This document shows, piece after piece, positions 6,593 through 57,940 of a stretch of DNA of 59,118 bases. The notes below the pieces were generated by a model. It searched no databases. It was not told where the DNA came from and was given only the letters and a program-made list of their open reading frames with translations. Origin of the DNA: a virus. Numbering within the stretch: the stretch's first letter is position 1; each line of letters begins with the position of its first letter. The stretch lies in the IMG/VR virus record IMGVR_UViG_3300048804_000103, positions 1-59,118 of that record, one strand, 5' to 3'. The position numbers and the translations under genes were made by a program.

Positions 6593-6621
6593 ATTATAAC
6601 AGAAAATAGGCCAAAAGTAAA
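6593..6621 (-). promoter_or_regulatory. Sigma-70 promoter of the helicase operon
   Basis: TTTACT, 17 bases, TATAAT on the minus strand, divergent from the uvsY promoter at 6676-6704. Confidence 0.75.
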
Positions 6622-6675
6622 CCCATTGAATTTTCCTTATTTTACAATAACTCTTTGAAACAAAAAAAGAAAATG

Positions 6676-6704
6676 ATTACTTTCCTGCTCATTTATGCTA
6701 TAAT
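6676..6704 (+). promoter_or_regulatory. Sigma-70 promoter of uvsY-uvsW
   Basis: ATTACT, 17 bases, TATAAT with a TGC extended -10. The transcript would have a short leader containing AGGAG before ATG 6730. Confidence 0.75.
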
Positions 6705-6729
6705 AAATAGAGATATTACAGGAGAAATT

Positions 6730-7158
6730 ATGGCCGAAGAACCAGAAAAAACTGAAGAAGAATTATTGCAGGAACTGATACAACAACATCCAATAGAAAC
6801 GATGGTACAATTTACAGAGTTCAGCATATTGGAAAAATTACAAACCAATACATTTGAAGTGGTCAAATATAAAGAGCTTTACATGAAAGAAAGAATACAA
6901 CTTGACAAATTGAATGCGCTGAAAGAAAAAACAATCTGTGATTTATATGACCATTATCGGTTTGAAGGCGATAAAGATTTGAAACCATCAGAAATTACAA
7001 CATACTACCTTCCCAAAGATCCCAAAATTATTCAGTTGAATAAATTGATACGAAGACAACAACAGAGAGTAGATTTCTTCGAACTTTGCGCATCCTCTCT
7101 TGAAAAAATGTCCTGGTCAATGAAGTCCTTCATTGAGACAACCAAAATCGGTATGTAA
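6730..7158 (+). CDS. uvsY: UvsY-like recombination mediator
   Basis: 142 residues, matching T4 UvsY (137). UvsY loads the UvsX recombinase onto gp32-coated ssDNA. ATG 6730 follows AGGAGAAATT; a longer frame to 6655 would start upstream of the promoter -10. The layout is that of UvsY: a helical block with KYKELYMKERIQLDKL, then DLYDHYRFEGD, then a C-terminal helix DFFELCASSLEKMSWSMKSF, comparable to LLDFCSGALDAIKSRGFAI in T4. The stop directly abuts the uvsW start, as in T4 where the genes are also neighbours. Confidence 0.75.
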   Translation: MAEEPEKTEEELLQELIQQHPIETMVQFTEFSILEKLQTNTFEVVKYKELYMKERIQLDKLNALKEKTICDLYDHYRFEGDKDLKPSEITTYYLPKDPKIIQLNKLIRRQQQRVDFFELCASSLEKMSWSMKSFIETTKIGM

Positions 7159-13161: not shown

Positions 13162-13887
13162 TCATTTATACCAATCAGCAATCTTACTTTTCAATTCTGC
13201 CATGGGCATTACATTGGGAGTAAAATATTTCCAGCCATAACTTTTCATTAAATTATAATAACCCTGGCCAATTGGATTTTTTATACTTGATTCATAAAAA
13301 TATGAAACCTTCTTATATGATCCTAAAACAACCTCATCAGTCAATTCCCCCGTATCGTTCTTCGCTTCTATATAAAATGGAAATTTACCTTTTAGAAATT
13401 CCTTCGTTTTTTGGATTTGATCATAGTATCTTAAAAAACTATCTCGATCAACTTTTCTTGATCTTTGCTGTATCCTCTCCCATGATGTTTCGGCAGAAGT
13501 ATTTACAAATATCATACCCATATCATAACCCAAATTTTCCAGAATATTATATCTTCTGATAACCGTGGTTGACTTTGAAGATGTAACATCAACGGCAAGA
13601 GGAAGAAGAGAATTGATATAAAGAAGAAGTTGTGTGGCTGTTACAGTTTTTGATCTATCATAAAACGCCATATAATCTTTACCATTGGGATCTTTAAATT
13701 CAACATATCTATCAACACTAACCATTCGCGGTTCAATTTGTCCCGATTTAACTTTTGTCAAGACATATGTTTTCCCTGCGCCAGGGAAGCCTGCCATAAA
13801 AACAGCTTTGAATATACCCAAGTCATTTATGCTTTCTTGAATTAATTCAGTTTCATTTATTTCGTCTATAAATCCACCAAGTCTCAT
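13162..13887 (-). CDS. Tagged zeta-toxin-like P-loop kinase
   Basis: 241 residues. Tag MRLGGFIDEINE (I-D-E) followed by GIFKAVFMAGFPGAGKTYVL, a clear Walker A, then MVSVDRYVEF with a zeta-like Asp. Zeta toxins phosphorylate UDP-N-acetylglucosamine; other members of this P-loop group phosphorylate different small molecules or proteins. The C-terminal 80 residues are unassigned. Packaged with the DNA, such an enzyme could act on host targets at once. Kinase class is probable, substrate unknown. Confidence 0.55.
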   Translation of the reverse strand: MRLGGFIDEINETELIQESINDLGIFKAVFMAGFPGAGKTYVLTKVKSGQIEPRMVSVDRYVEFKDPNGKDYMAFYDRSKTVTATQLLLYINSLLPLAVDVTSSKSTTVIRRYNILENLGYDMGMIFVNTSAETSWERIQQRSRKVDRDSFLRYYDQIQKTKEFLKGKFPFYIEAKNDTGELTDEVVLGSYKKVSYFYESSIKNPIGQGYYNLMKSYGWKYFTPNVMPMAELKSKIADWYK

Positions 13888-13901: not shown

Positions 13902-14714
13902 TTAATAAAATATTTTTTTCCAGACATCCCTGTTGACTAAAACAGATTTATCTTCAATCCAGACTTCTCTATCAAGAGGAAGAGAATCACCAGATGTTTT
14001 CAATTCAAATTTACATGTCTCTGGATTGAAAATCTTTCGCAAAAAATCAATAGAAGAGACCTTCTTGGAAAAATATTTCAATTCATTCCAAATCTTACAA
14101 TAATATTTCTTAGAATAATATTCCTGCCCTGTGTTTTTGTACTCATGCGCAAATTTCTCAAAGTTCTTATCAATAAGTTCCATAGCTTTTTTAAACTTAT
14201 TATAATCCCTGTCTATCAATTCGGGTTTGGCCTCGTGTAAAATGTTATTATAAAAAATAATCAATAAGTCATCAATAGCTTCAACAAGGTCGCTCAATTG
14301 GGCTTTACCACCAATATTTGTTGGCCATATATCAGAATTAGGGCATACTCCAATTCTTGCTCCATCAATAGGAAACACTTTATATAAGTTTTCACCAAAG
14401 GCTTCGGCATATATTGGGTTTGTAGAACAAATGATTGATTTGCTTCTTTTGGGATACTTTTGCCATTCTGGAAAATTATCTATCATCAACGTATAATAAT
14501 TAAAAGTATTGGCAGAATATCTTTCATATTTTGATGGTTCCACAAGAAGAACATCTCCTGTTGTGGCCGAATCTCTATATATAGCATAAGGAGCATCAAG
14601 TGCTTTAGAGCAAGATGAATAAATAAATTCTCGGCCCTTTGCCAAATCCAAAACTGAAGACCTTGTTTTATCATCATATTTTATTTTTTCTTCAAGATAA
14701 TTTTCTAATCTCAT
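13902..14714 (-). CDS. Tagged ADP-ribosyltransferase-like protein, family B (copy 1)
   Basis: 270 residues. Tag MRLENYLEEKI (Y-L-E-E). Family B blocks: YAIYRDS, DNFPEWQKYPKRSKSIICST, LYKVFPIDGARIGVCPN and DREVWIEDKSVLV. The order Arg, RSxSI with Thr, and a C-terminal E-V-W block mimics ADP-ribosyltransferases. In this copy the position of the final Glu seen in copy 3 (DSECVLV) is Lys-Ser, so the active site may differ. The next gene starts by overlap. Confidence 0.5.
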   Translation of the reverse strand: MRLENYLEEKIKYDDKTRSSVLDLAKGREFIYSSCSKALDAPYAIYRDSATTGDVLLVEPSKYERYSANTFNYYTLMIDNFPEWQKYPKRSKSIICSTNPIYAEAFGENLYKVFPIDGARIGVCPNSDIWPTNIGGKAQLSDLVEAIDDLLIIFYNNILHEAKPELIDRDYNKFKKAMELIDKNFEKFAHEYKNTGQEYYSKKYYCKIWNELKYFSKKVSSIDFLRKIFNPETCKFELKTSGDSLPLDREVWIEDKSVLVNRDVWKKIFY

Positions 14715-15502
14715 TTTATCAACTCCGAAAATCCTCGGCGTTCTGCTTTTCCTTTAAAAATAAGAACACAATCCGAATCTGTCCACACTTCCTTCCCCTC
14801 TGGAATTTGTGTTTTGATATTAGCAATACGAAATCCATTCTTTTTAGGGTCAAGTGCTTCATCAAGAGCATCCAAAAAACTGATATTCCTACCAAAATAT
14901 TTTACATGGTCTATAAAATATTTTTGTACCAATTCTGGCTGTGTTGTTCTATACCACTTCTCAATCTTATCTTTATTCTTATCACATAGACTTAAAACTT
15001 TAACAAAGTCTGTCCATTTTTCTATGTTCCCCTTCAAATTAAAAATTTTGTCAAATATATCTTGAAGATAATATAATAGTCTTGCTTCACCTATATCACC
15101 CAAAGATTTCTTAAATGAACCCTGATTAAAATCTATTGCTGGGCAGACCGCCAATTTCGCCCCATTAAAAGGATACACTCTATATAAAACACTACCAAAT
15201 TCACCTGGCCCCATCTTCCCTGTTATAGTAGAAATAGATAATGACCTTTTTGGATATTCTTTCCATGATGGAAGATTGTCGGCAAGTAACATCAAAAATT
15301 CTATTCTAATTTTTGAATGTCTCGGTGATAATGATGGCTTATAGATAAAGGCGGGATCGGTTCTATTCAATCCCCTAAATAATCTCGTATCACTATTATG
15401 GGCATCGGAACATTTGGCCTTGACTATTTCCATTGCTTTCTTTTCAGAAATCATTGTATACTTATCTGCTTTATCTTCCAATATATAATTATTTAATCTC
15501 AT
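14711..15502 (-). CDS. Tagged ADP-ribosyltransferase-like protein, family B (copy 2)
   Basis: 263 residues. Tag MRLNNYILEDK (Y-I-L-E). Blocks LFRGLNR, LPSWKEYPKRSLSISTITG, LYRVYPFNGAKLAVCPA and GKEVWTDSDCVLIF follow family B, with Asp where copy 3 has Glu in the last block. Its stop overlaps the start of copy 1. Family membership is clear; enzymatic class tentative. Confidence 0.5.
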   Translation of the reverse strand: MRLNNYILEDKADKYTMISEKKAMEIVKAKCSDAHNSDTRLFRGLNRTDPAFIYKPSLSPRHSKIRIEFLMLLADNLPSWKEYPKRSLSISTITGKMGPGEFGSVLYRVYPFNGAKLAVCPAIDFNQGSFKKSLGDIGEARLLYYLQDIFDKIFNLKGNIEKWTDFVKVLSLCDKNKDKIEKWYRTTQPELVQKYFIDHVKYFGRNISFLDALDEALDPKKNGFRIANIKTQIPEGKEVWTDSDCVLIFKGKAERRGFSELIK

Positions 15503-15512
15503 CTAAAAACCC

Positions 15513-16316
15513 TCAAAGCAATGATGGATCTAAAATATTTTTTAAAGAATTTACGCTCACCAGAACACATTCACTATCCGTCCACGCTTCCCGTCTGGGA
15601 GGAAGAATCATATGTTTATTCAGAGTTATCAATTCAAAATTGTTATTTTTAGGACTAATTTTTTCTCTCAAAACATCCACTAATTTAAGTTTAGGTGTAT
15701 TGATATATTCAGATTTATCATGAAATATTTTACTGCGCATTAAGCCTAAACTCATTTCTTGATAATATGTTTTAATTCTTTCTTTATTTCTGGGCCTATC
15801 CGCGATACTAAATTTTTTCAATAATTCTTCATATGTTATTTTTTGTTCCTTGTGTATCTCTTCGCGAAAAAGACCAAAAATAGTATTCAATTCAATGCTA
15901 AAAGTTTCAATTCCCGAGCCAAGAGAAAAGACAAAAGCAGACCACACATCAAATTTCGGGGAGATTGCTATTTTAGCATTATTTACTGGAAAAACTCTAT
16001 ATATAGCCGTACCATAAGAATAGGCAACATCATCACTCGTTCCCATAATAATTGATTTGCTTCGTTTTGGATATTCCTTCCATTCTGGAAAATTATCCAT
16101 CATTAACACATAGAATATAAAGGTGTCTCGTGAACCTCTCTCCCCTTTAGATGGGTCTGTAAAATAATATGGTTCTGTTGCCCCTTTGATGCCTCTATAT
16201 AATGAAGAAGATTCAACAGAATTATCATTATGAGAAATGAAATCTTTCACCCATTTCGTCGTAACACTAACACTTCTGCTTCGTCTTTCTTCTTCCAAAT
16301 AATTGTTTAGTCTCAT
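15513..16316 (-). CDS. Tagged ADP-ribosyltransferase-like protein, family B (copy 3)
   Basis: 267 residues. Tag MRLNNYLEEER. SLYRGIKG, FPEWKEYPKRSKSIIMGTS, IYRVFPVNNAKIAISP and REAWTDSECVLVS give the most complete set of R, S/T and E blocks in family B. Overlaps the stop of the C39-like peptidase gene. Likely an injected effector if the tag works as a capsid signal. Confidence 0.55.
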   Translation of the reverse strand: MRLNNYLEEERRSRSVSVTTKWVKDFISHNDNSVESSSLYRGIKGATEPYYFTDPSKGERGSRDTFIFYVLMMDNFPEWKEYPKRSKSIIMGTSDDVAYSYGTAIYRVFPVNNAKIAISPKFDVWSAFVFSLGSGIETFSIELNTIFGLFREEIHKEQKITYEELLKKFSIADRPRNKERIKTYYQEMSLGLMRSKIFHDKSEYINTPKLKLVDVLREKISPKNNNFELITLNKHMILPPRREAWTDSECVLVSVNSLKNILDPSLL

Positions 16317-16891
16317 TCTATTTTTTTAATTACCTTATTACTGAAATTTGGTTTCTTTCCTGAAACTGCAAAACCATAATGTTCTACTTTTTTCCCTGTT
16401 TCGTCAACTGCATGCCATCTCGCATTCAATTCATCAAAATCCAGCCATCCCCTTGTTTCCAAAGACGGGTCGGCGAAAAATAATCTCTTCTGAAATAAGT
16501 TATAACCGATAGCAACAATATAGTGACCATCGGTATATGTCATAGAATAGTCTTTTGGTCTTTGCTCTGCCCATGCTTGCATCAGGACAATTACAGGAAT
16601 GTCCCGTTGAATATATTGAACAACCTCTTCTATAGTAAAATATTCCTTATGTTCAAGAGTATATCCACGCTCTGTTAGAAAAGATATAACGGATTGAATT
16701 GCCGAGCCGATATTCATCACATCACAGGGAACGGTATGAAGCCATTTCATCACTTCGGTTTCTCTCGGCATATCGTTTTCATAATATGCTATAACTGATT
16801 GAACAGCGGCTGCACCACAAGAGTAATTTGTGCTCTGCCTTACATGAGGAAAATCCATCATTTTTTCTGATATAAATTCATTCAATCTCAT
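16313..16891 (-). CDS. Tagged C39-like cysteine peptidase (copy 1)
   Basis: 192 residues. Tag MRLNEFISEKM (I-S-E). Papain-like C39 pattern: NYSCGAAAVQSV with Cys25, GHYIVAIGY with the His, and FFADPS with the Asp. C39 peptidases cut after double-Gly leaders in transporters, but stand-alone phage forms have unknown substrates. A second tagged C39-like gene lies at 57302-57940 in the other cargo cluster. Confidence 0.7.
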   Translation of the reverse strand: MRLNEFISEKMMDFPHVRQSTNYSCGAAAVQSVIAYYENDMPRETEVMKWLHTVPCDVMNIGSAIQSVISFLTERGYTLEHKEYFTIEEVVQYIQRDIPVIVLMQAWAEQRPKDYSMTYTDGHYIVAIGYNLFQKRLFFADPSLETRGWLDFDELNARWHAVDETGKKVEHYGFAVSGKKPNFSNKVIKKIE

Positions 16892-16902
16892 CTATAATCC
16901 CT

Positions 16903-17532
16903 CTACTTTATATATTTCTTCCTAACCTTCATAGCTTTTCTTATATCTTCCAAATACACTTGACTGACAAGATAATATTCTTTACAATTAAAAACTACTT
17001 CCGCATCTTGATGAATTGCTTCTGCAAGTCTATCATCGTTATATGATTTCACTAATTGTTGTAATCTTATTTTTGCTTCTTCCTTATACTTATCCAAAAA
17101 GAAGAGATGAGGAATAGATCTCTGGCCCGTAACCTCATCAGCAATATCATTTATTTTAATATATATATCATAAATATCATCTGCCCAAGCATACTGATAT
17201 TCGCCTACAGGAAAAAACAAATACGCATAACCATAATAACCAGATTCATGCCCCATTGTAGAAACACCATCTCGTTCCTTCCATCCAAGATGTTCTATAA
17301 ACAAGTCATTCAAATAATCATGAACCTCTGGTGGTGTATTTCTTGGCTCACGACCGCTTTTAACATGAGATTGAAATAATCTATAATGATTCACAGGCTG
17401 ATATGTTGCCCTATAAAGAGATTGACCTTTGGATTCCACGATAAAATCAAAGCATTCTTTTCTTAATATATCGCATATTTCTTCTGATTTCTTTGAAAAA
17501 TCTTCTTTACTTAAAAATTCATTTAGTCTCAT
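16903..17532 (-). CDS. Tagged ADP-ribosyltransferase-like protein, family A (copy 5)
   Basis: 209 residues. Tag MRLNEFLSKEDF. Family A blocks: SLYRATYQ, REPRNTP, GWKERDGVSTM, YLFFPVGEYQYAW and AEVVFNCKEYYLVS. It is separated from copies 1-4 by family B and other genes, so the duplication is not purely tandem. Its start overlaps the stop of the carboxypeptidase gene. Confidence 0.55.
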   Translation of the reverse strand: MRLNEFLSKEDFSKKSEEICDILRKECFDFIVESKGQSLYRATYQPVNHYRLFQSHVKSGREPRNTPPEVHDYLNDLFIEHLGWKERDGVSTMGHESGYYGYAYLFFPVGEYQYAWADDIYDIYIKINDIADEVTGQRSIPHLFFLDKYKEEAKIRLQQLVKSYNDDRLAEAIHQDAEVVFNCKEYYLVSQVYLEDIRKAMKVRKKYIK

Positions 17533-18353
17533 GTATTATCTCGTATCCAATTTATGAATGCTTCAATCATCTCAACATTACACTTCAATCGTTTTTCCAA
17601 TGGTTGATTTCCAGGAGTTTCCGTAACAACGGCCCTGTCTGTCATGCCCTCTCTAAAAAGCCAATCCTGAAATCCACCATCAAATCTTTTGAAAACAATC
17701 GAATCAATCACGGCATCGCATTTACTTGGAGATTCACCAAATCCAAAAGGAAGGAAATATTTGGTTTCTATGTCTCTGAATAGATTGGTGAAATTTCCTG
17801 GTTCTGCCGATTTTTCATATCCGTATATGAAATAGTCAAAATCGTATCCAGGATTCTCGTGGAGACATATCAACCCATCCTTGGCCAAGTCTTTATAGAT
17901 AGCCCCGTGTGACCTCAAAATCTCTCCTTCTTTAGACAATTGAGGAATATGTTGTATATCATCAGTTTTTATATATCCCCTGTTAGAATCGTCACCATAT
18001 CCCCCATGCCTCATATTCATTCTAAACCCCATGGGATTTACTAGGGGAATAATTGAAACGTTTATATTGTCAAATATATTCAAATCGGTATTTTCTAAAA
18101 ACCTCACGACGCCCCAAGGGCCAGCAATTTCATTTCCATGAAATCCCGATGTAATAAGACCGTTTCCACCATTTACCTTTGGTCGTTTCAATAGGTAAAT
18201 ATGGTTTTTTGTATCACCAATTTCTCCTAATGAGGAAATAGAAAAATTACATCTTCTCGCAGCATCAAAAAGTCTTTTGTTGAAGTAATAAAGATTATTC
18301 ATTACTTCATAAGCAATATTCATTTCAGGAGCAATAAAATCCAACCATTTCAT
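17529..18353 (-). CDS. Tagged M14-family zinc carboxypeptidase (AstE/AspA-like)
   Basis: 274 residues. N-terminus MKWLDFIAPEM resembles the capsid tag. Zinc motif FHGNE (His72, Glu75), an N-P-M-G-F substrate-binding segment with NRG, a second His in LHENPG and the catalytic Glu in VTETPGN are in M14 order. The pattern is closest to the succinylglutamate desuccinylase/aspartoacylase branch, so the substrate may be a small acyl-amino acid, a peptide or cell-wall stem peptide. First tagged gene of the leftward cargo operon. Confidence 0.7.
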   Translation of the reverse strand: MKWLDFIAPEMNIAYEVMNNLYYFNKRLFDAARRCNFSISSLGEIGDTKNHIYLLKRPKVNGGNGLITSGFHGNEIAGPWGVVRFLENTDLNIFDNINVSIIPLVNPMGFRMNMRHGGYGDDSNRGYIKTDDIQHIPQLSKEGEILRSHGAIYKDLAKDGLICLHENPGYDFDYFIYGYEKSAEPGNFTNLFRDIETKYFLPFGFGESPSKCDAVIDSIVFKRFDGGFQDWLFREGMTDRAVVTETPGNQPLEKRLKCNVEMIEAFINWIRDNT

Positions 18354-19044: not shown

Positions 19045-20976
19045 TTATTCTACTACTGGGAACTCCTGTATTGGTTGCGGTTGTATTCCACTTTCTGTTA
19101 CTTTCGATTCTACTACAGGAACAGTGGGCTTGATAGATGCGGGGGCATCTTCCATTATTTTTATGCTCACAAATTCATAATCTTTGGGAATAAAGATTTT
19201 AGAGAATTGACCTTTTGCTATCTCTTCTGTTTCCCCATCAATGATAAATGTGTTTTCCTTGGCATCTTTTCCTATACCTTTGTATGTTACTTCATATTTG
19301 TTTCTCTTTGCGGATATAGAAGATGTTGGTGTGTTTGTATTCCATTCATCTTTATTCGCAACTGGAATATGAACAATTGGTCCAAGTTTTTCATAGGATT
19401 TACAATCATCTTTTCCTATGCAGAATAAACCCGATACCTTTTGGTTACGGCATCTTCCTGCTGGACTTTCATTTGTAACAAAATAATGTTTGCAGGTAAT
19501 GGATTCATCATCACTTCCACTACCATTTCCTTGCGCTATTTTTCTGTTGGGGGAAAAGTTCGTTCCGCATGCAGACCATCCCAAACATTTCTTCGACATT
19601 ACTTTATTGTGGCGGCAATCGCCTTTTGAGAAATAATAACACAATTTTGCAGAATTGCCAGAGACGAGAGTAGGAGTGGGCGAAGGTGGTGTGAATTTAT
19701 AACTGAAAACTCCACACTTTCCTCTTCCTATACATTCAACACCCGTGACATTTCTATTGTGGCACCCGTGAGGTTTTGTAGATGATTGTGCTGCTGTGTA
19801 ATAATCAGAGCATTTCTTCGATTGTTCATCTACTACCTCACCATTCTTATTTTCGAATTGAGGACAGCCATTGAAATAGGTGCAATATGGCCCTGTAATC
19901 TTGTTATTTGAGCATCCTTTATTATCCATGTAATGGAGACAGTTCATTTCCAATTTTTCTGTTGTCTCATCACTCTTCTTTGTCTCTTTTTCCACTTCTT
20001 CAGTTGTTTTTTCGTCAGATGTGGGGGAGGTTGTGGAAGACTTTTGTCCTTCTTCACTCCCCCCGTTCCGAAAAAAGTTAGCGTCATAGTCGCCATACAT
20101 TTCAGGTCCGTAAACCCCATGTGCTGGTTGACTATATACTGTAGTTGGTGGATTGATTTTCTCTTCTGCGAGTTTGATAAATTCAGTTTCGTCAAATTCA
20201 ACATTGTAAAGCATCTTCAGTTTACCTGGAACAATTATCAATGAACCACAAGGAGTTTTTACTCTGCAACGGGTCTTGCTTCCCGTATGAGTAACAACTG
20301 TACTGATATTGTGGTTTTGATTAATCCAGGCATCATCTGTTCCTGAAAAATCCTTAAACATGCTGTGATGGGAATGAATTACTCCAACAACGCATTGACC
20401 TTCTGGAACGGAATATTCAACCTCTCCTACATGGGCAGAAGATGCCTTTTGCTCTGGAATTACCAAATCGTTGACAATATATTGGTCTTTTGGCCCAACA
20501 TAATAAGCAAGCCATTCCTGATTTTTATATTTACTCATCAGGGAATCAATTTTCATTTTGACAATAGGCTGAAGTTTGACTTCCTTTTCCGATGGTGCTT
20601 TGCTACAAGAAGTTACACAATCCAGCTTGACTTCCCACGAATCTGCTTCGCTTGCCAATTTTCCCCCCTTAAATGTCTGAAATCCTGCTCTATGGGCAGT
20701 ATATGTTCTAACTTCTTCTTTTGGGGCTGAAGGACTGATTTCATCTTTCTTTTCAGAATTTTTCAACTCTATTTCCTTTGTGGTGTTTGCCCTGCCGGCC
20801 AGCATTTTTCCCATGATTTTATTCCCTGCTGGAACAGCAGAAAATTCTGTTAGTTTTTTGAAAGAGCTGACCGTCTTACCATCACCGATCAAATAAACCC
20901 AAGTATTAGGTTCTTTCTCTCCCAGTTCTTTTATACCCGCGAATACCTCTTTCTTTATCGGCATCTGATCACCCAT
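19045..20976 (-). CDS. JAMM/JAB metalloprotease with four Cys4 units
   Basis: 643 residues. JAMM proteases remove ubiquitin-like proteins or trim their C-termini. The metal motif is exact: H201-x-H203, seven residues, S211-x-x-D214 (HSHHSMFKDFSGTDD), with Glu154 a candidate catalytic base. A Glu/Lys/Thr-rich linker (300-342) leads to four similar Cys4 units (Cys 346/355/365/371, 389/405/415/421, 446/454/464/470, 495/509/519/525), each with C-x-N and G-x-x-C; these may bind zinc and substrates. A beta-rich C-terminal domain follows (about 545-620). Downstream of E1 and two E2-like genes, so it is probably the deconjugase. Confidence 0.75.
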   Translation of the reverse strand: MGDQMPIKKEVFAGIKELGEKEPNTWVYLIGDGKTVSSFKKLTEFSAVPAGNKIMGKMLAGRANTTKEIELKNSEKKDEISPSAPKEEVRTYTAHRAGFQTFKGGKLASEADSWEVKLDCVTSCSKAPSEKEVKLQPIVKMKIDSLMSKYKNQEWLAYYVGPKDQYIVNDLVIPEQKASSAHVGEVEYSVPEGQCVVGVIHSHHSMFKDFSGTDDAWINQNHNISTVVTHTGSKTRCRVKTPCGSLIIVPGKLKMLYNVEFDETEFIKLAEEKINPPTTVYSQPAHGVYGPEMYGDYDANFFRNGGSEEGQKSSTTSPTSDEKTTEEVEKETKKSDETTEKLEMNCLHYMDNKGCSNNKITGPYCTYFNGCPQFENKNGEVVDEQSKKCSDYYTAAQSSTKPHGCHNRNVTGVECIGRGKCGVFSYKFTPPSPTPTLVSGNSAKLCYYFSKGDCRHNKVMSKKCLGWSACGTNFSPNRKIAQGNGSGSDDESITCKHYFVTNESPAGRCRNQKVSGLFCIGKDDCKSYEKLGPIVHIPVANKDEWNTNTPTSSISAKRNKYEVTYKGIGKDAKENTFIIDGETEEIAKGQFSKIFIPKDYEFVSIKIMEDAPASIKPTVPVVESKVTESGIQPQPIQEFPVVE

Positions 20977-20988
20977 TGCATCCCCCTT

Positions 20989-21576
20989 CTAATGTTTTAA
21001 CGAAAACAATCTTTGGATTGTTGTTGAAATTTCTTCTTTGTCATACTTCATAATTTTTGCTACGGTCAGCGCGGCGACAATGACAGCAGGAACAACCCAA
21101 GACGGAATTACTGTATATCCATCTTCGGCAACACCCCATTCTGCCAAATTGTTATTGATAGAGATATGTTCTCCATCATAACCCGCTTTTACATATTTGC
21201 TTCCGAATTTTTTGGCTATCTTCAAATTTTCTTCTTGGGACTTTGACAAATCGGTGCAATCAATAACCCAATCGGTTTTTTTGGCCAGATGTTCCTGATA
21301 TTTGAAAGGCATTGCATAGCAAGACACTTCGGGCCTCAATTCAACGATAAGGTCTTTGAGAACTTGTGCTTTATTTACACCGATTGCTTTTTCGGTCAAA
21401 TCCAATCGGTTTCTATTATGATCTTCAATTGTATCAGGGTCGAATAAATGGATTGTCTCTATCCCGGCCATGGCGCAAAATTTTCCAACCCAAAATCCAA
21501 TACCACCGCATCCTACAACGGTAATAGATGGGGTTCTCAACTGTAAAGCCTTTTGCCTATCATACAACATTGTCAT
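20989..21576 (-). CDS. E1-like adenylyltransferase (ThiF/MoeB family)
   Basis: 195 residues, ATG 21576 after AGGAG. ThiF-type enzymes adenylate the C-terminal Gly of a ubiquitin-like protein. TVVGCGGIGFWVG is the nucleotide-binding loop, DPDTIEDHNRNR holds the conserved Asp, Asn and Arg, and VIDCTD is the following motif. No Cys occurs after that point and no zinc CxxC pair, so it may only adenylate, passing the product directly to an E2-like partner. Between JAMM and E2-like genes. Confidence 0.85.
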   Translation of the reverse strand: MTMLYDRQKALQLRTPSITVVGCGGIGFWVGKFCAMAGIETIHLFDPDTIEDHNRNRLDLTEKAIGVNKAQVLKDLIVELRPEVSCYAMPFKYQEHLAKKTDWVIDCTDLSKSQEENLKIAKKFGSKYVKAGYDGEHISINNNLAEWGVAEDGYTVIPSWVVPAVIVAALTVAKIMKYDKEEISTTIQRLFSLKH

Positions 21577-21594
21577 TTTTCATTCTCCTTTCTT

Positions 21595-22341
21595 TTAATA
21601 GTCATCTCCATCACCATATTCATCATATTCGCTTGAACTGCTTCTGCTATACCATGCTGATTTGTTTTTCACAATCCTTTTGTTTATTAGTGTTTTTCTC
21701 AAATATTTCTTTTTCAAAACATCAATCTCTGGTAAATCTTTTGGGTCACGGCGAGCAATAGAATGTGTATTGATATTTTCCAAGACAGTCTCTGCATTTA
21801 TTATTATATGAAATAATTCTTCAGGGGAATTAATTTCTTCTGGCCACCGATAACTACCCCAACAATCAGGATGTGCTTGATGATAGTGGTCAAAAAAAGC
21901 AAGGTCTTTTATTCTTCTGGTTGAAATGCTGTATATCTTGCTTTTTACCATTTCAACCAAAAAATAAATATCATGCCTCATTTTTTTCGCCTGAATAGAA
22001 GAAATAAACGCATTATCAACCATTTTGGGGCGATATTCTCCCTTTATCAAATAACATACTCTTCCATTTTTCCCATTGAATACTGTCATTCCCCTTCTGG
22101 CATAATCAAAATCTACATCAGGCATGGGAGCAGTATTTTTCATTTTGTTATATAATGATTTTTCTTTTCTCTCATATTCTTTCCGTATTTGATCAACCAT
22201 GACAGTCATTTCTTCCATCCATCTCTTGAAATATTTCGGGTCAACGGGTTTGGGTTCTGTTGCTTTCATAGTTTGAACACACCTTTTTTTATATTCTTCA
22301 AAGTCTACCTTCAAATCGCTTGATTGCCATATGAATGCCAT
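21595..22341 (-). CDS. E2-like conjugating enzyme candidate (copy 1)
   Basis: 248 residues. Paralogue of the next gene upstream. A coiled N-terminal region (MVDQIRKEYERKEKSLYNKM) leads to a conserved core: MPDVDFDYARRGM, VCYLIKGEYRP, QAKK, STRRIKDLAFFDHYHQAHPD followed by CWG. The His-Pro then Cys within DHYHQAHPDCWG is reminiscent of the HP and active Cys of E2 folds. Position between E1 and Ubl genes supports this, but the fold was not verified. The C-terminus is Ser/Asp/Tyr-rich. Confidence 0.5.
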   Translation of the reverse strand: MAFIWQSSDLKVDFEEYKKRCVQTMKATEPKPVDPKYFKRWMEEMTVMVDQIRKEYERKEKSLYNKMKNTAPMPDVDFDYARRGMTVFNGKNGRVCYLIKGEYRPKMVDNAFISSIQAKKMRHDIYFLVEMVKSKIYSISTRRIKDLAFFDHYHQAHPDCWGSYRWPEEINSPEELFHIIINAETVLENINTHSIARRDPKDLPEIDVLKKKYLRKTLINKRIVKNKSAWYSRSSSSEYDEYGDGDDY

Positions 22342-22347
22342 ATTGGT

Positions 22348-23301
22348 TTACCTTCCTGTATCCCAAGTTTCCGTGCCTTCTCGTCTCTGAGGTCTTAATT
22401 CTTCTCCTGGTAGGGGCTGGGCCACTTCTGGTTCCGGCATTCTTCCTTCAGCAAGTCTTTCCAATTCCAATTCATCCATTTCCATCCAGGATTTCTTCTT
22501 TCCCTTTTTCATGCCATCCAATTCAGATTTCAATTCATCAGTGTCAATAATGTATTTTCTCAGAACATCAATCTTTGGATATATCCTTGGATTTCTATTT
22601 GCTATAGAACCAGTATTGATATTTTCCAAAACACCTTCTGCTGTTCTAGCAATAGAAAACAGATCATAAGGAGTTTTAAAATCTTTCGGCCACATCCATT
22701 TCCCCCAACAATCGGGTTTTGCTTGGTGATAATGATCAAAATAGTCAAGAGTGTTTATATCTCTGGTAGACACCATTGATATGTTTTTTCCATCTTTTAC
22801 ATTGAACATAATGAAAATATCTGCTTCAAGTTTTTTGGCCTGGACAGGTTTAAGGGGCTTCTGGTCGATCATAAGAGGACGATATTTTCCCCTGATAAGA
22901 TAGCAAACTTCTCCACTATCTCCCTTGAAAACATACATTCCCTTTCTTGCCATATCTAAATTTACATCAGGCATGGGAGACATATTTCTCATTCTGTCAT
23001 TTATGATTTTTTCTTTTCGATCATATTCACTTTTGATCTGACTGACCATGGCCGTAACTTCACTCATCTTGTTATTGATTATATCTCCAATTTGAGCAAG
23101 TTTCTTGGTTAGTTTTTCGCTATATTCTTTTCTGATTTCCTGATCAACAGATGTGGAAGAAGCATCACCGACAACGGCAAGCTGAACGATCTTGTTTCCA
23201 ACTCTCATTGTCACTTTATCCAATTTGATCTTCTCAATATCTACAACATTGAGGCAATTGGTCATTTCCGATTTCAGATCATCAAGATTTTTTTCTGCCA
23301 T
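22348..23301 (-). CDS. E2-like conjugating enzyme candidate (copy 2)
   Basis: 317 residues from ATG 23301 with AGGAGAGAAAAAC; a longer frame to 23337 has no ribosome site. Shares with copy 1 MPDV, R-x-GM, VCYLIRGKYRP, QAKK, STRDI and FDHYHQAKPDCWGKW, then VLENINTGSIA. An extra N-terminal region of about 100 residues and a Pro/Glu-rich tail distinguish it. Only the Pro-Asp-Cys-Trp-Gly part of the HP motif is kept (Lys-Pro instead of His-Pro). First gene of the transcript that ends with the JAMM protease. Confidence 0.5.
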   Translation of the reverse strand: MAEKNLDDLKSEMTNCLNVVDIEKIKLDKVTMRVGNKIVQLAVVGDASSTSVDQEIRKEYSEKLTKKLAQIGDIINNKMSEVTAMVSQIKSEYDRKEKIINDRMRNMSPMPDVNLDMARKGMYVFKGDSGEVCYLIRGKYRPLMIDQKPLKPVQAKKLEADIFIMFNVKDGKNISMVSTRDINTLDYFDHYHQAKPDCWGKWMWPKDFKTPYDLFSIARTAEGVLENINTGSIANRNPRIYPKIDVLRKYIIDTDELKSELDGMKKGKKKSWMEMDELELERLAEGRMPEPEVAQPLPGEELRPQRREGTETWDTGR

Positions 23302-23347
23302 GTTTTTCTCTCCTATATTGAAAAATAGACAATACAATTCTACTTAT

Positions 23348-23376
23348 ATTATAACATAAAAACATCAATATGTAAA
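23348..23376 (-). promoter_or_regulatory. Sigma-70 promoter of the E2-E1-JAMM operon
   Basis: TTTACA, 17 bases, TATAAT on the minus strand, beginning five bases after the terminator of the Ubl gene. Confidence 0.8.
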
Positions 23377-23380
23377 CATA

Positions 23381-23414
23381 AAAAAAGAGGAAGAAAAATT
23401 TCTCTTTCTTCCTC
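23381..23414 (-). terminator. Intrinsic terminator of the Ubl gene
   Basis: GAGGAAGAAA pairs with TTTCTTCCTC; six T follow on the minus strand. It separates the Ubl transcript from the E2-E1-JAMM transcript. Confidence 0.85.
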
Positions 23415-23457
23415 AAGCAACGCTGGCGTTTACAAATTTTCGAAAATTTGACAGCTT

Positions 23458-23733
23458 TTATCTACCAGCAACGTCAAAAGCTCTTATCTCCATTTTGTCA
23501 CCCTCATTCAATGTTTCGGGTGCCTGGGATGGGGTAATCTCTGAACCGTTTAGATAAACACGGAACTTTCCGAAACCCGCATCACGGGAAAGCTGGAGAC
23601 AAGTATCCTTGAAGCTGGCACCTGCGGTCAAAGGAATCTGTGCTCCATTGACTAACGCAAAGGTTCCCAATCCCTCAAGGTTTCTGGGACTTTCTTCTCT
23701 TGCCCATACTTCTCTTTCGTCTCTCTCTGACAT
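23458..23733 (-). CDS. Ubiquitin-like beta-grasp protein
   Basis: 91 residues. Small modifier expected to be activated by the neighbouring E1. After a charged N-terminal tail of about 28 residues comes TFALVNGAQIPLTAGASFKD, then CLQLSRDAGFGKFRVYLNG, ITPSQAPETLNEGDKMEI and a C-terminal AFDVAGR. The strand-helix-strand order and late EGD are typical of ThiS/MoaD-type folds. It ends Ala-Gly-Arg rather than Gly-Gly; trimming of the Arg would expose a C-terminal Gly. Own promoter and terminator. Confidence 0.7.
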   Translation of the reverse strand: MSERDEREVWAREESPRNLEGLGTFALVNGAQIPLTAGASFKDTCLQLSRDAGFGKFRVYLNGSEITPSQAPETLNEGDKMEIRAFDVAGR

Positions 23734-23820: not shown

Positions 23821-24576
23821 CTATTGATCTAATTTTGATAAAAGATAATATTTTTCGCTACTATCCGTTTTAATGAATGAAATCATTCCTAAATCTTGAG
23901 ATTTAGTCCATGACAAACTAAGAACAAAATCAGCATACTCTTCCCCGATAACAGAGAAAACATTTACCAAATCTTTATATTGGAAGAATAAAGCCAAATT
24001 TTCCATCTTGAGAGGAACTAAATTCACCCTCAAAGAATTTGCATAAGTATTTTTCTGGTCCGTAGTCTCCATATATAAAATGTTATTATCAACCCCGAAA
24101 TAAACTTTCCCGAATGTTGCTCCTATTTTCTTGATCTTTAGAAAGTTTCTGATGAAAACATCATCTAATTTCATTTCATGAAAACATTTTACATCAGAAC
24201 GTATGGTATCACTTGTGAATATTGTAACAAGCTCTGATGGGCAGAAGTGAATATTAACCTTCTGTGCGTCCATAGATAGAACCATTTTTTCCAAAGATGT
24301 TTCAACATTAATTACATCCCCATCATCATATACATTTAGATAAGGCAGAACATTTGTATTGGGGTCATTGAAATTAAGAGATATATCCTGGACTGTATCC
24401 ATTTCAATAAGGGCATCATTGCTCGGAATATTAATGATAGATATGACATCATTTGCCTTCGCTATCATTCCACTCTTTACTGAATTTTTCTTAAAGTTAA
24501 TTTGAACACTTTCAAAAGCAAAATTCACTGTTGCTTTTTTGAGAATTTTTTTGAACTCTCCCACATGTAAGCGCAT
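23821..24576 (-). CDS. 45: Sliding clamp (T4 gp45-like)
   Basis: 251 residues (T4 gp45 is 228). Ring-shaped processivity factor for DNA polymerase, and in T4 also a late transcription activator. MRLHVGEFKKILKKA and FESVQINFKKNSVKSGMIAK match the opening of clamp domains (compare MKLSKDTTALLKNFATI in T4), with two beta-rich halves around 1-125 and 126-251. Identification relies on this layout plus its place after the clamp loader genes. The MRL start is probably coincidence, as no cleavage-like x-E follows. Confidence 0.7.
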   Translation of the reverse strand: MRLHVGEFKKILKKATVNFAFESVQINFKKNSVKSGMIAKANDVISIINIPSNDALIEMDTVQDISLNFNDPNTNVLPYLNVYDDGDVINVETSLEKMVLSMDAQKVNIHFCPSELVTIFTSDTIRSDVKCFHEMKLDDVFIRNFLKIKKIGATFGKVYFGVDNNILYMETTDQKNTYANSLRVNLVPLKMENLALFFQYKDLVNVFSVIGEEYADFVLSLSWTKSQDLGMISFIKTDSSEKYYLLSKLDQ

Positions 24577-25017
24577 TTATTCTTCCTCCTTCTTTTCTTT
24601 TGGTGGTGTTATCACCACTTCTAATTCACCATTCCCCAAGTTAAATCCTGCTTTCTCTTTGGGTTTAACATCAATCAGTGTTGCTATTCCAGACATATCC
24701 GCCAAGTCTAATTGTCCTTTAGGATAATACATGGAACATTCAACAATGGGGTCTACCTTATTGGGTTGTGACCAAATAACATTTTCACCATAATAACCAC
24801 TATCACACAATGCTCTGTCGCCACCAAATTCTAAAATCTGCATTCTGAAATGTTTACATTGGTTACATACACCATAATTACTTTTCTTTTTTCTTCCAGG
24901 CGAACCCTGAAAAGATTCTTCCAAGGCTTTACTTTCTACCCAAAAATTTTTTGACATTCTCTTTCTTCCTTTTTGGTTTTCTTCCCAATAAGAATCAAAA
25001 CTACTTCCCATCCCCAT
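24577..25017 (-). CDS. Cys4 protein between clamp and clamp-loader genes
   Basis: 146 residues; ATG 25017 (GGAAAG upstream) overlaps the gp62-like stop, while ATG 24957 with AAGGAAG is an alternative start. CNQCKHF, LCDSG and VECSMYYPKG give four Cys in a pattern also seen in the 27929-28120 protein. The C-terminus is acidic and Lys-rich (PPKEKKEEE). T4 has no equivalent here. Function unknown. Confidence 0.5.
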   Translation of the reverse strand: MGMGSSFDSYWEENQKGRKRMSKNFWVESKALEESFQGSPGRKKKSNYGVCNQCKHFRMQILEFGGDRALCDSGYYGENVIWSQPNKVDPIVECSMYYPKGQLDLADMSGIATLIDVKPKEKAGFNLGNGELEVVITPPKEKKEEE

Positions 25018-25372
25018 TTTTTTCTTTCCATTTCATTTTTATAAAGGGCAAGAATTTAGACATTTCCAATCTTGATATTCCCAGTCTTTCCCGCGCCTCT
25101 TCTAATTGTTCATCCAAAATACCACTCTCTTCTTTCTTTACCCACTTTATCCATCGTCTGCCTTTGGGTATCTTGTAAAAATAGTATTTATAAATCATTT
25201 TTGCCGGCAGGAAGAATTGGATTTCATTTATTCTATTTACAATTTCAATCAGGTTTTTGTCGTGGGAAAAATACAAGGATAGTATATAAGGTGGAAGATC
25301 GCTTTGTTTATAATCAATCTCTCTCTTATCATAAATCGAATTTATAACTTCCCCAAATTTATTCACAGCCAT
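25001..25372 (-). CDS. 62: Clamp loader small subunit (T4 gp62-like)
   Basis: 123 residues (T4 gp62 is 187). Works with gp44 to load the clamp. YKIPKGRRWIKWVKKEESGI aligns with AVPRGKRYGKWAKLVEDSTE of gp62, the best conserved part. ATG 25372 overlaps the gp44-like stop (TAATG), as expected of coupled subunits; a GTG further upstream is less likely. The N-terminal collar region is shorter than in T4. Confidence 0.65.
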   Translation of the reverse strand: MAVNKFGEVINSIYDKREIDYKQSDLPPYILSLYFSHDKNLIEIVNRINEIQFFLPAKMIYKYYFYKIPKGRRWIKWVKKEESGILDEQLEEARERLGISRLEMSKFLPFIKMKWKEKNGDGK

Positions 25373-26280
25373 TATATGTATTTTTCCTTTATACACCTAG
25401 CAATAAATCTCATGAAATTAATTTCCTTGATTGAGAAGAAACTATCTCTATACAACGCATCCCCGATTTCAATTATCATATCCCCTGGCGATTTAAATTC
25501 ATCTATGCTTGAAAATAAGAAATTGTATAGGTCTGAATAGTTTACCGCATTGCTTCTCAAAATTCTTCTTATCTCATTGAGATCGACCTTTTTAATATTT
25601 TCCAACACTTCTTTATATATAATGCTGACTTCTATTATTTTTATTTCATCAATCGTGTTATCTATTGTATTGTATTGAAGAGTATTTATTATTCCTCTTA
25701 TATCAGGATAGAGTTTTCTTATCATTTCGATGATTGCTATCTTATCCTTTATAATAACTTTTTCTTTTTTAAGTATTTTCCAGCAAAAAATTATTATATC
25801 CTTTTCTGGTGGAGCATTAAGTGAAATTACTTGGCAGCGGGACACTAATTCGGGCATCAATTTATCTCCATAATTACACATGAAAATAAATCGAGTTATT
25901 TTTTCGACCTTTTCTATCAAATCTCTCAACATAGCTTGCGCGGGGAGACTGAGCCAATCCATTTCATTCATTATAACAACCTTCAATGGATTTCTACCAA
26001 GTGCGGTAGCAAAAGATTTTATATTATTCCTGACATTATCAATGGATGTTTCATCAGAACAGTTTATTTTCATGCTATCCAATCCTGTTTCTTTCAGAAA
26101 TATATTGGTGAATGTTCCCTTACCAACTCCCGCAGGACCGATTAATAATATGTTGGGTCTAGTTTTTATAATTTTTTTCAGTCTCTCTCGTATATCATTA
26201 CTCAAAACCATTTCGTCAAGAGAAACTGGTTCATGCTTGAAGGGCCACATTTCTGTGCTATCAAATTCATTTGTCATCAT
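25372..26280 (-). CDS. 44: Clamp loader large subunit (T4 gp44-like AAA+ ATPase)
   Basis: 302 residues (T4 gp44 319). WPFKHEPVSLDEMVL is the usual RFC-type N-terminus. Walker A GPAGVGKGT at 48-56, a Walker B-like VVIMNEMD with NEMD at 105-108 in place of DExD, and the SRC motif at 147-149 that supplies the arginine finger. ATG follows AGGAAAAAC. The order gp44, gp62, then clamp partly keeps the T4 order. Confidence 0.85.
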   Translation of the reverse strand: MMTNEFDSTEMWPFKHEPVSLDEMVLSNDIRERLKKIIKTRPNILLIGPAGVGKGTFTNIFLKETGLDSMKINCSDETSIDNVRNNIKSFATALGRNPLKVVIMNEMDWLSLPAQAMLRDLIEKVEKITRFIFMCNYGDKLMPELVSRCQVISLNAPPEKDIIIFCWKILKKEKVIIKDKIAIIEMIRKLYPDIRGIINTLQYNTIDNTIDEIKIIEVSIIYKEVLENIKKVDLNEIRRILRSNAVNYSDLYNFLFSSIDEFKSPGDMIIEIGDALYRDSFFSIKEINFMRFIARCIKEKYI

Positions 26281-57301: not shown

Positions 57302-57940
57302 ATGCGCCTAAAAAAATATATAGTAGATGAACAAATTGGCGGAGGGGCAGTTGGAGTAATACCCAAAACAGCAAAAGTTTTGGACTTCCCCGAATTGCGC
57401 CAAGCATATGATTATGACTGTGGAGCATTATCATTACAATCTGTTCTGGCATATTATGGTTTGGATATGAGAGAAGAGATGATAATGAAACAATTAGGAT
57501 CATCACCCGAGCATGGGACACCCGTTACAAGTTTAATTGTGGGGGCAACATATTATGGTATAGATGTAGAAACAAGAAGTGGGTTGACAATAGATGACCT
57601 TAAAAATTCTATTGATAATGGTTGGCCTGTCATAATAACTTTACAAGCATGGGCAGATTATGATAAAAGACATCAAATAGGATTTACATATAATGATATA
57701 TGGAATGAGGGACATTATGTTGTGGCAATAGGATATGATGACCAGAAATTTTATTTTGAAGACCCATCTGATCCCCGCAGAACATGGTTAAGTTATCAAT
57801 TATTAAACGACAGATGGCACGATCAAGACGATACAGGGGAGAAGTATGAGCATTGGGGAATGATCTGTAAAGGCTCTCCAATATTCAGAGCAAATCAAAT
57901 GGTTTATATGGAAGGGAAGCAAAAAAGACATATAAAATAA
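57302..57940 (+). CDS. Tagged C39-like cysteine peptidase (copy 2)
   Basis: 212 residues. Tag MRLKKYIVDEQ. Active-site pattern: YDYDCGALSLQSVLAYYG (Cys40), GHYVVAIGYDD and FEDPSDPRRTW. LLNDRWHDQDDTGEKYEHWG also aligns with ELNARWHAVDETGKKVEHYG of the copy at 16313, so they are true paralogues located in the two separate cargo clusters. Confidence 0.7.
   Translation: MRLKKYIVDEQIGGGAVGVIPKTAKVLDFPELRQAYDYDCGALSLQSVLAYYGLDMREEMIMKQLGSSPEHGTPVTSLIVGATYYGIDVETRSGLTIDDLKNSIDNGWPVIITLQAWADYDKRHQIGFTYNDIWNEGHYVVAIGYDDQKFYFEDPSDPRRTWLSYQLLNDRWHDQDDTGEKYEHWGMICKGSPIFRANQMVYMEGKQKRHIK

Follow-up and report, generated by a model that had tools for sequence, protein, structure and literature searches.

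A conserved phage gene cassette for a putative ubiquitin-like conjugation system, located beside replication genes

The IMG/VR virus record IMGVR_UViG_3300048804_000103 is a 59-kb stretch of DNA (59,118 nucleotides; hereafter the window, whose positions are used throughout), in which five consecutive open reading frames (ORFs) on the minus strand, at 19045-23733, encode a beta-grasp ubiquitin-like protein (Ubl), two paralogues with an HYH...CWG motif, a ThiF/E1 adenylation enzyme and a JAMM protease. An earlier note on the sequence had proposed this composition, with the same coordinates, as a ubiquitin-like conjugation cassette, and the composition was borne out by profile searches, AlphaFold2 models compared by Foldseek, and motifs. 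We call the paralogues E2 candidates because the genes that accompany theirs make an E2 function likely and a UBC profile match is lacking. The five genes are:

23458..23733, minus strand: Ubl, a 91-amino-acid beta-grasp modifier (AlphaFold2 and Foldseek)
22348..23301, minus strand: E2 candidate 1, 317 amino acids, orthologous to the only copy that other phages have
21595..22341, minus strand: E2 candidate 2, 248 amino acids, a phage-specific duplicate with HYHQAHPDCWG at 21856-21888
20989..21576, minus strand: E1, a ThiF/MoeB-type adenylation enzyme of 195 amino acids (PF00899, 6.8e-22)
19045..20976, minus strand: JAMM/MPN+ protease, 643 amino acids, with Glu154, HSHHSMFKDFSGTD (20335-20376) and four Cys4 units

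The genes are separated by 6-18 nucleotides, with the exception of the 156 nucleotides between the Ubl gene and that of E2 candidate 1, and a Shine-Dalgarno-like sequence precedes the start of every one of the five ORFs. E2 candidate 1 most likely starts at the ATG at 23301, which has AGGAGA ahead of it, rather than at the mechanically assigned TTG at 23337.

By sequence the Ubl went unrecognised (ThiS at 0.21 only). Its AlphaFold2 model has the bb-a-bbb arrangement of a beta-grasp fold, with a core predicted local distance difference test (pLDDT) score above 90 and a disordered N-terminal tail that bears the W10 motif EVW (23704-23712). Nearly all of the 50 PDB matches listed by Foldseek were ubiquitin, ISG15, SUMO, ThiS, MoaD or TtuB, with probabilities mostly of 0.8-0.99, yet with E-values of 0.02-0.12. 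As modelled, the protein can be assigned securely to the beta-grasp fold. Its C-terminus reads ...FDVAG followed by a single R (23461-23475), and almost all of 40 distinct homologues end in [DE]-x-[AVP]-[GA] plus 0-7 extra residues, the last residue of the motif being Gly in nearly all of them and Ala in a few. Tails found elsewhere include AIILCQ after ...YDDAG (contig L005) and NVVLV after ...YDNAG (L018), and many homologues have no tail. Such C-termini fit a modifier that would be matured after AG.

The E1 carries GCGGIG at 21496-21513 and DCTD at 21250-21261, and its closest solved structures are MccB and Uba1 (E ~1e-14); against the E1-E2 model of PADLOC it scored 2.1e-15. Judged by these sequence matches, its assignment to the ThiF/MoeB/E1 family is secure. 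Across 15 homologues the nucleotide motifs are invariant, and C107, within DCTD, is the only Cys conserved throughout; members of a small distant clade have a further C-terminal Cys in RCRQ. The enzyme consists of the adenylation domain alone and lacks the cysteine domain of thioester-forming E1 proteins, so that a Cys on an E2 candidate would have to accept the Ubl.

The exact H-x-H-x7-S-x2-D protease motif that the earlier note had reported was located at residues 201-214 of the JAMM protein (HSH-x7-S-x2-D), with Glu154 upstream; the pattern arose in 21 of 20,000 shuffles of this protein. The Prok-JAB profile matched all 15 aligned homologues (best 4.7e-7), and H-x-H...S-x2-D was present in 39 of 39, with longer spacers in a few. 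The Glu of EW[LV] was detected in all but a few homologues by the pattern used. Membership of the JAMM family is likewise secure at the level of sequence. The four Cys4 units, also reported previously, lie at residues 346-371, 389-421, 446-470 and 495-525 (19402-19941); homologues in L066, L081, L122 and L138 are Cys-rich too (16-24 Cys), and most others are not.

The two E2 candidates are about 43% identical and have in common the HYHQAxPDCWG block described in the earlier note, located at 22702-22734 (HYHQAKPDCWG, with Cys198) in copy 1 and at 21856-21888 in copy 2. Copy 1 ends in an ETWDTGR tail (22351-22371); copy 2 has neither the N-terminal region of copy 1 nor its C-terminal W motif. 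HYH-x(0-10)-CWG was found in 42 of 42 intact distinct homologues, collected through searches with the E2 candidate, E1 and clamp, with 0 to about 10 intervening residues. In the AlphaFold2 model of copy 1 a long N-terminal helix is followed by a core of about 90 pLDDT, in which a short helix, strands 122-126, 132-140, 160-169 and 173-181, the His/Cys loop and helix 211-225 are predicted in the order of a UBC domain. Seven of the 50 PDB matches listed by Foldseek were UBC, UEV, RWD or Cap2 proteins, and the weak matches include UBE2N, Cap2, the Tsg101 UEV domain, UBE2S and Spc24/25. E2 candidacy is supported by this weak fold resemblance, by the invariant H-Y-H/Cys site and by gene context; from the genes kept alongside, the HYH...CWG protein likely performs the E2 function, and its E2 ancestry is unproven.

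Complete single-copy E2 candidates finish in a Trp-bearing tail, typically [DEQ]VW[ST]; a similar [DE]xW is present in most of those Ubls that have a tail at the N-terminus. This common motif may dock the Ubl and the E2 candidate on one partner. A contig of the same phage type, L039, encodes at 6610-6861 (plus strand) a probably disordered protein of 83 amino acids whose three W-[NS]-T repeats (GGWNTGNPQKNWSTGRKPKDVWNTSNP) are like the tail sequences of the JAMM protein and of E2 candidate 1; this protein might be a partner of the Ubl system or one of its substrates. A scan for W-[DNSG]-[TS]-[GNS] gave 16 occurrences, weakly above the 9.4 in shuffles. A role of the W motif as clamp-binding peptide was not supported, since the C-terminus of the polymerase, ...LSLFFK, looks different.

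Next to the cassette lie three genes for clamp and clamp-loader proteins, in agreement with the phage origin and the adjacency to replisome genes put forward previously:

25372..26280, minus strand: clamp-loader gp44-type ATPase (phrog_168, 3.9e-57), with about 30% identity to those of cultured T4-type phages
25001..25396, minus strand: clamp-loader gp62-type subunit (PF16790 Phage_clamp_A, 1.4e-5; 26 bits against a cut-off of 27)
23821..24576, minus strand: sliding clamp, assigned to the T4 gp45 type from its place between clamp loader and cassette; 16 relatives were aligned

The sliding clamp had no match of its own in the family-profile scans. We surveyed 63 contigs, a few of which are near-copies of one another. 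In 41 of them the two clamp-loader subunits, clamp, Ubl, E2 candidate, E1 and JAMM genes follow one another in fixed order, with the clamp directly upstream of the Ubl; eight hold a partial or relocated set, some broken by contig ends, and the remaining 14 show the clamp block but lack the set. No E1 was found in 10 of these 14 contigs searched end to end, including contigs of 171 and 133 kb. The earlier note had regarded a lack of linkage among related phages as a reason to give up the cassette, and its retention in 41 contigs removes that objection. The set is a real, conserved phage module. The set occurs far more widely than in the window; both E2 candidates are indeed present, and two intact copies occur only in the window phage, other loci having one (a second match in L130 is a 166-residue fragment without the motif). 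As the duplication is found only here and Cys-rich JAMM tails only in some members, neither belongs to the core system.

On the clamp tree the presence of the set needs seven changes, at least two of them forced by well-supported branches. Because of these repeated changes, and because related replication loci occur without it, the set is, to judge from the sequence comparison, accessory, with repeated gain or loss at the same site. In the distant members L135, L141 and L142 the E2 candidate, E1 and JAMM genes lie beside other genes, with a Ubl present in two of the three (L141 is cut at the contig start); from this different context the genes behave as a module. Among 50,697 GenBank phage records no relative of the Ubl, the E2 candidate or the JAMM protein was found, and the E1 matches were distant ThiF proteins.

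A locus almost identical to that of the window was found in the 156-kb contig L001, which encodes a T4-type DNA polymerase, a DnaB-like helicase, a primase, a second DNA helicase and an RNA ligase, and whose clamp loader shares about 30% identity with its counterparts in cultured T4-type phages. By these replication genes and that identity, the window phage is placed in a T4-type lineage without close cultured relative. A host assignment from a match to a Thermoplasmata metagenome-assembled genome (L016) was dropped, the match being a viral-looking contig inside a bin.

We consider that the cassette is probably a working, reversible, phage-encoded Ubl conjugation system. Direct support comes from the predicted Ubl fold, the families of the E1 and the JAMM protein, the catalytic residues, the gene order and the inheritance of the genes as a set; the E2 function, the thioester step, precursor trimming and conjugation itself we infer. 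The E1 would adenylate the C-terminal ...AG carboxylate of the Ubl. As this enzyme lacks a cysteine domain, the activated Ubl would pass directly, as a thioester, to the invariant HYH...CWG Cys (Cys198 of copy 1); the protein with this motif would thereby serve as an E2 and hand the Ubl on to substrate amino groups, possibly without an E3. The JAMM isopeptidase would trim those Ubl precursors that have a tail (between AG and R in the window, and after AG in L005 and L018) and would remove the Ubl from substrates. The latter is expected to be its commoner task.

Several results weigh against this proposal. The best of the 50 PDB matches listed for E2 candidate 1 had an E-value of 0.07, so none was significant, and its E2 matches had TM-scores of at most about 0.3; a fold search of BFVD returned nothing recognisable. 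Of the UBC/RWD fold check suggested in the earlier note, therefore, the compatible topology and the seven weak matches stand, and a significant match or a sequence profile does not. Pfam and NCBIfam gave no match for 18 members of the family, and PADLOC, PHROGs and a PDB profile search were likewise without E2 match. By hhalign the probability was at most 0.12% against UBE2D2 and against Prok-E2_A and Prok-E2_B, two collected bacterial E2 domain families, unrelated controls scoring no worse; the positive control, E2_A against E2_B, reached only 9%, which makes this profile-profile test of limited power. A higher hhalign score with the JAMM protein was discarded as a chance pairing of DCWG with DYWE. 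In addition, L034 (19 kb) has a Ubl and an E2 candidate with no E1 or JAMM on the contig, and L108 (57 kb) has E1 and JAMM with no E2 candidate on the contig, as split loci or losses; and most Ubls end in AG already, so that trimming is not generally required.

These silent searches are what one would expect if conjugation used a non-UBC HYH...CWG protein, either a new fold supplying the Cys that the E1 lacks or the main Ubl substrate or scaffold. The long N-terminal helix and the conserved tryptophan tail suggest a scaffold, and the distance from HYH to Cys is more variable than that from HPN to Cys in typical E2s. However, the predicted order of the core fits UBC, several of the weak fold matches are E2s, and an invariant Cys beside His suits catalysis better than a scaffold; we regard this alternative as unlikely. 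A sulfur-carrier pathway, in which the E1 would lead to a Ubl thiocarboxylate as in ThiS, MoaD or CysO, the JAMM protein would free the product and the Cys protein would act as sulfurtransferase, appears more improbable still. The E1 resembles MoeB in having no cysteine domain, but the Ubls end in AG (also PG, VG or AA) and not in GG, the usual C-terminus of sulfur carriers. The Ubl is weakly ThiS-like (TIGR01683, best 0.029), and Ubl-JAB-E1 operons tied to sulfur exist (PMC1779556); no sulfur-metabolism gene, however, was recognised among the scanned neighbours.

The remaining alternative concerns purpose, and its mechanism overlaps with the conjugation system that we propose: the cassette might be aimed at the host, tagging defence proteins or competing with host Ubl systems. 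Host Ubl systems do counter phage (PMC10097602), the E1 is nearest to E1-E2 proteins among the PADLOC defence models, and the cassette comes and goes within the lineage, as accessory anti-defence genes do. Its constant position within the replication gene block in 41 contigs argues otherwise, and we hold counter-defence to be a doubtful account. Gene order is what ties the cassette to replication, and from it comes the speculative suggestion that the neighbouring clamp or another replisome protein is the Ubl substrate. It is conceivable, though we would not expect it, that these phages tag their own sliding clamp or another replisome protein with a dedicated Ubl, using an E1, an E2 of a new family and a JAMM protein as eraser, as a viral and perhaps convergent counterpart of the ubiquitination and SUMOylation of PCNA that would switch replication, repair or late transcription. 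Conserved clamp lysines (K14, K147 and K150) were dropped as an argument for a substrate, since they could equally contact DNA.

Bacterial operons with the same parts list were predicted as operon type 6d by Iyer et al. 2006 (PMC1779556). The phage set is like them in having separate genes for a Ubl with a conserved terminal Gly, an E1-like, an E2-like and a JAB protein, and in its mobile-element setting. Type 6d is presumably the ParB-related, ThiF-related cassette (PRTRC) system. Membership of PRTRC was rejected, however, as no PRTRC A, B, C or ThiF profile scored above cut-off (PRTRC_A 15.1 against 101.8 bits, PRTRC_ThiF 18.1 against 144.75) and its Ubl and E2 models had no match in the phage set; moreover, in the phage E2 candidate the conserved His precedes the Cys instead of following it, and the neighbours are clamp genes. 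In bacterial ISG15-like (BIL) and bacterial ubiquitination-like (Bub) operons Ubl, E2, E1 and JAMM are separate proteins, without a recognised E3. The composition is the same, whereas the phage E2 candidate falls outside all E2 models, the E1 is an adenylation domain only and the context is phage replication; no labelled Bil profile matched in the profile scans of the phage set.

In type II cyclic-oligonucleotide-based antiphage signalling systems (CBASS), real Ubl-like conjugation depends on an E1-E2 protein and a JAB protein acts as eraser; Cap2 is a fused E2-E1 that adjoins a CD-NTase, which plays the Ubl part (PMC10097602). The phage E1 domain is similar (E1-E2 model of PADLOC, 2.1e-15) and is paired with a JAB/Mov34 protease as in Cap2/Cap3, but the phage parts are all separate, with a true Ubl, and the block showed no recognisable CD-NTase; separate genes beside clamp and clamp loader, with neither a Cap2 fusion nor a CD-NTase pairing, led us to reject membership. 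Lambda-type tail assembly (TAPI/TAPK) also offers a phage-encoded Ubl with a JAB peptidase (PMC1779556). It was rejected because the neighbours of the cassette are replication genes; the cassette lies outside the tail module, has an E1 and an E2 candidate, and its JAMM is unfused to NlpC/P60. The 6A-MBL E2-E1-JAB protein shares E1 similarity (NF058523, 6.4e-12) and an H...C followed by a helix, but is a triple fusion with a metallo-beta-lactamase, and hhalign of the E2 candidate against its E2 domain was not significant. In the open-access literature no account of a comparable phage set was found, subscription papers being mostly outside this scope. To our knowledge, complete Ubl systems are otherwise known from cells, plasmids or islands, not fixed in a phage replication block.

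If the system works, a full Ubl on/off cycle is encoded beside the replication genes of dozens of environmental phages, and its E2-like enzymes form a family absent from Pfam and NCBIfam. Ubl conjugation would then be a tool of phages as well as a trait of host defence. The minimal four-part set (adenylation-only E1, E2, Ubl and JAMM) would also allow direct tests of the origin of E2 transfer.

Other genes of the window were also noted. Between clamp loader and clamp, 24577-25017 (minus strand) encodes a Cys-rich protein with CxxCKHF...C...C, present in L011 too, for which a Pfam search gave no match. Directly downstream of the cassette, 17529-18353 (minus strand) weakly matches AstE/AspA-like or M14 metallocarboxypeptidase-like proteins; no such gene was seen beside the cassette at other related loci that were checked. 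A Zeta-toxin/AAA_33 kinase-like protein is encoded at 13162-13887 (minus strand; PF06414, 5.6e-9). Eight ORFs start with MRLNxYLxE-like peptides, for example MRLNNYLEEE and MRLNEFISEK, at positions that include 14711-17532 and 9201 (minus strand) and 56966 and 57302 (plus strand). Internal head proteins of T4 bear capsid-targeting sequences that are cut by the prohead protease, and these N-termini resemble them by analogy. The S77 protease family was found in three of five related contigs and not in the 156-kb contig. Two C39-like peptidases, at 16313-16891 (minus strand) and 57302-57940 (plus strand), both have an MRL-type N-terminal peptide and are possibly injected along with the DNA.

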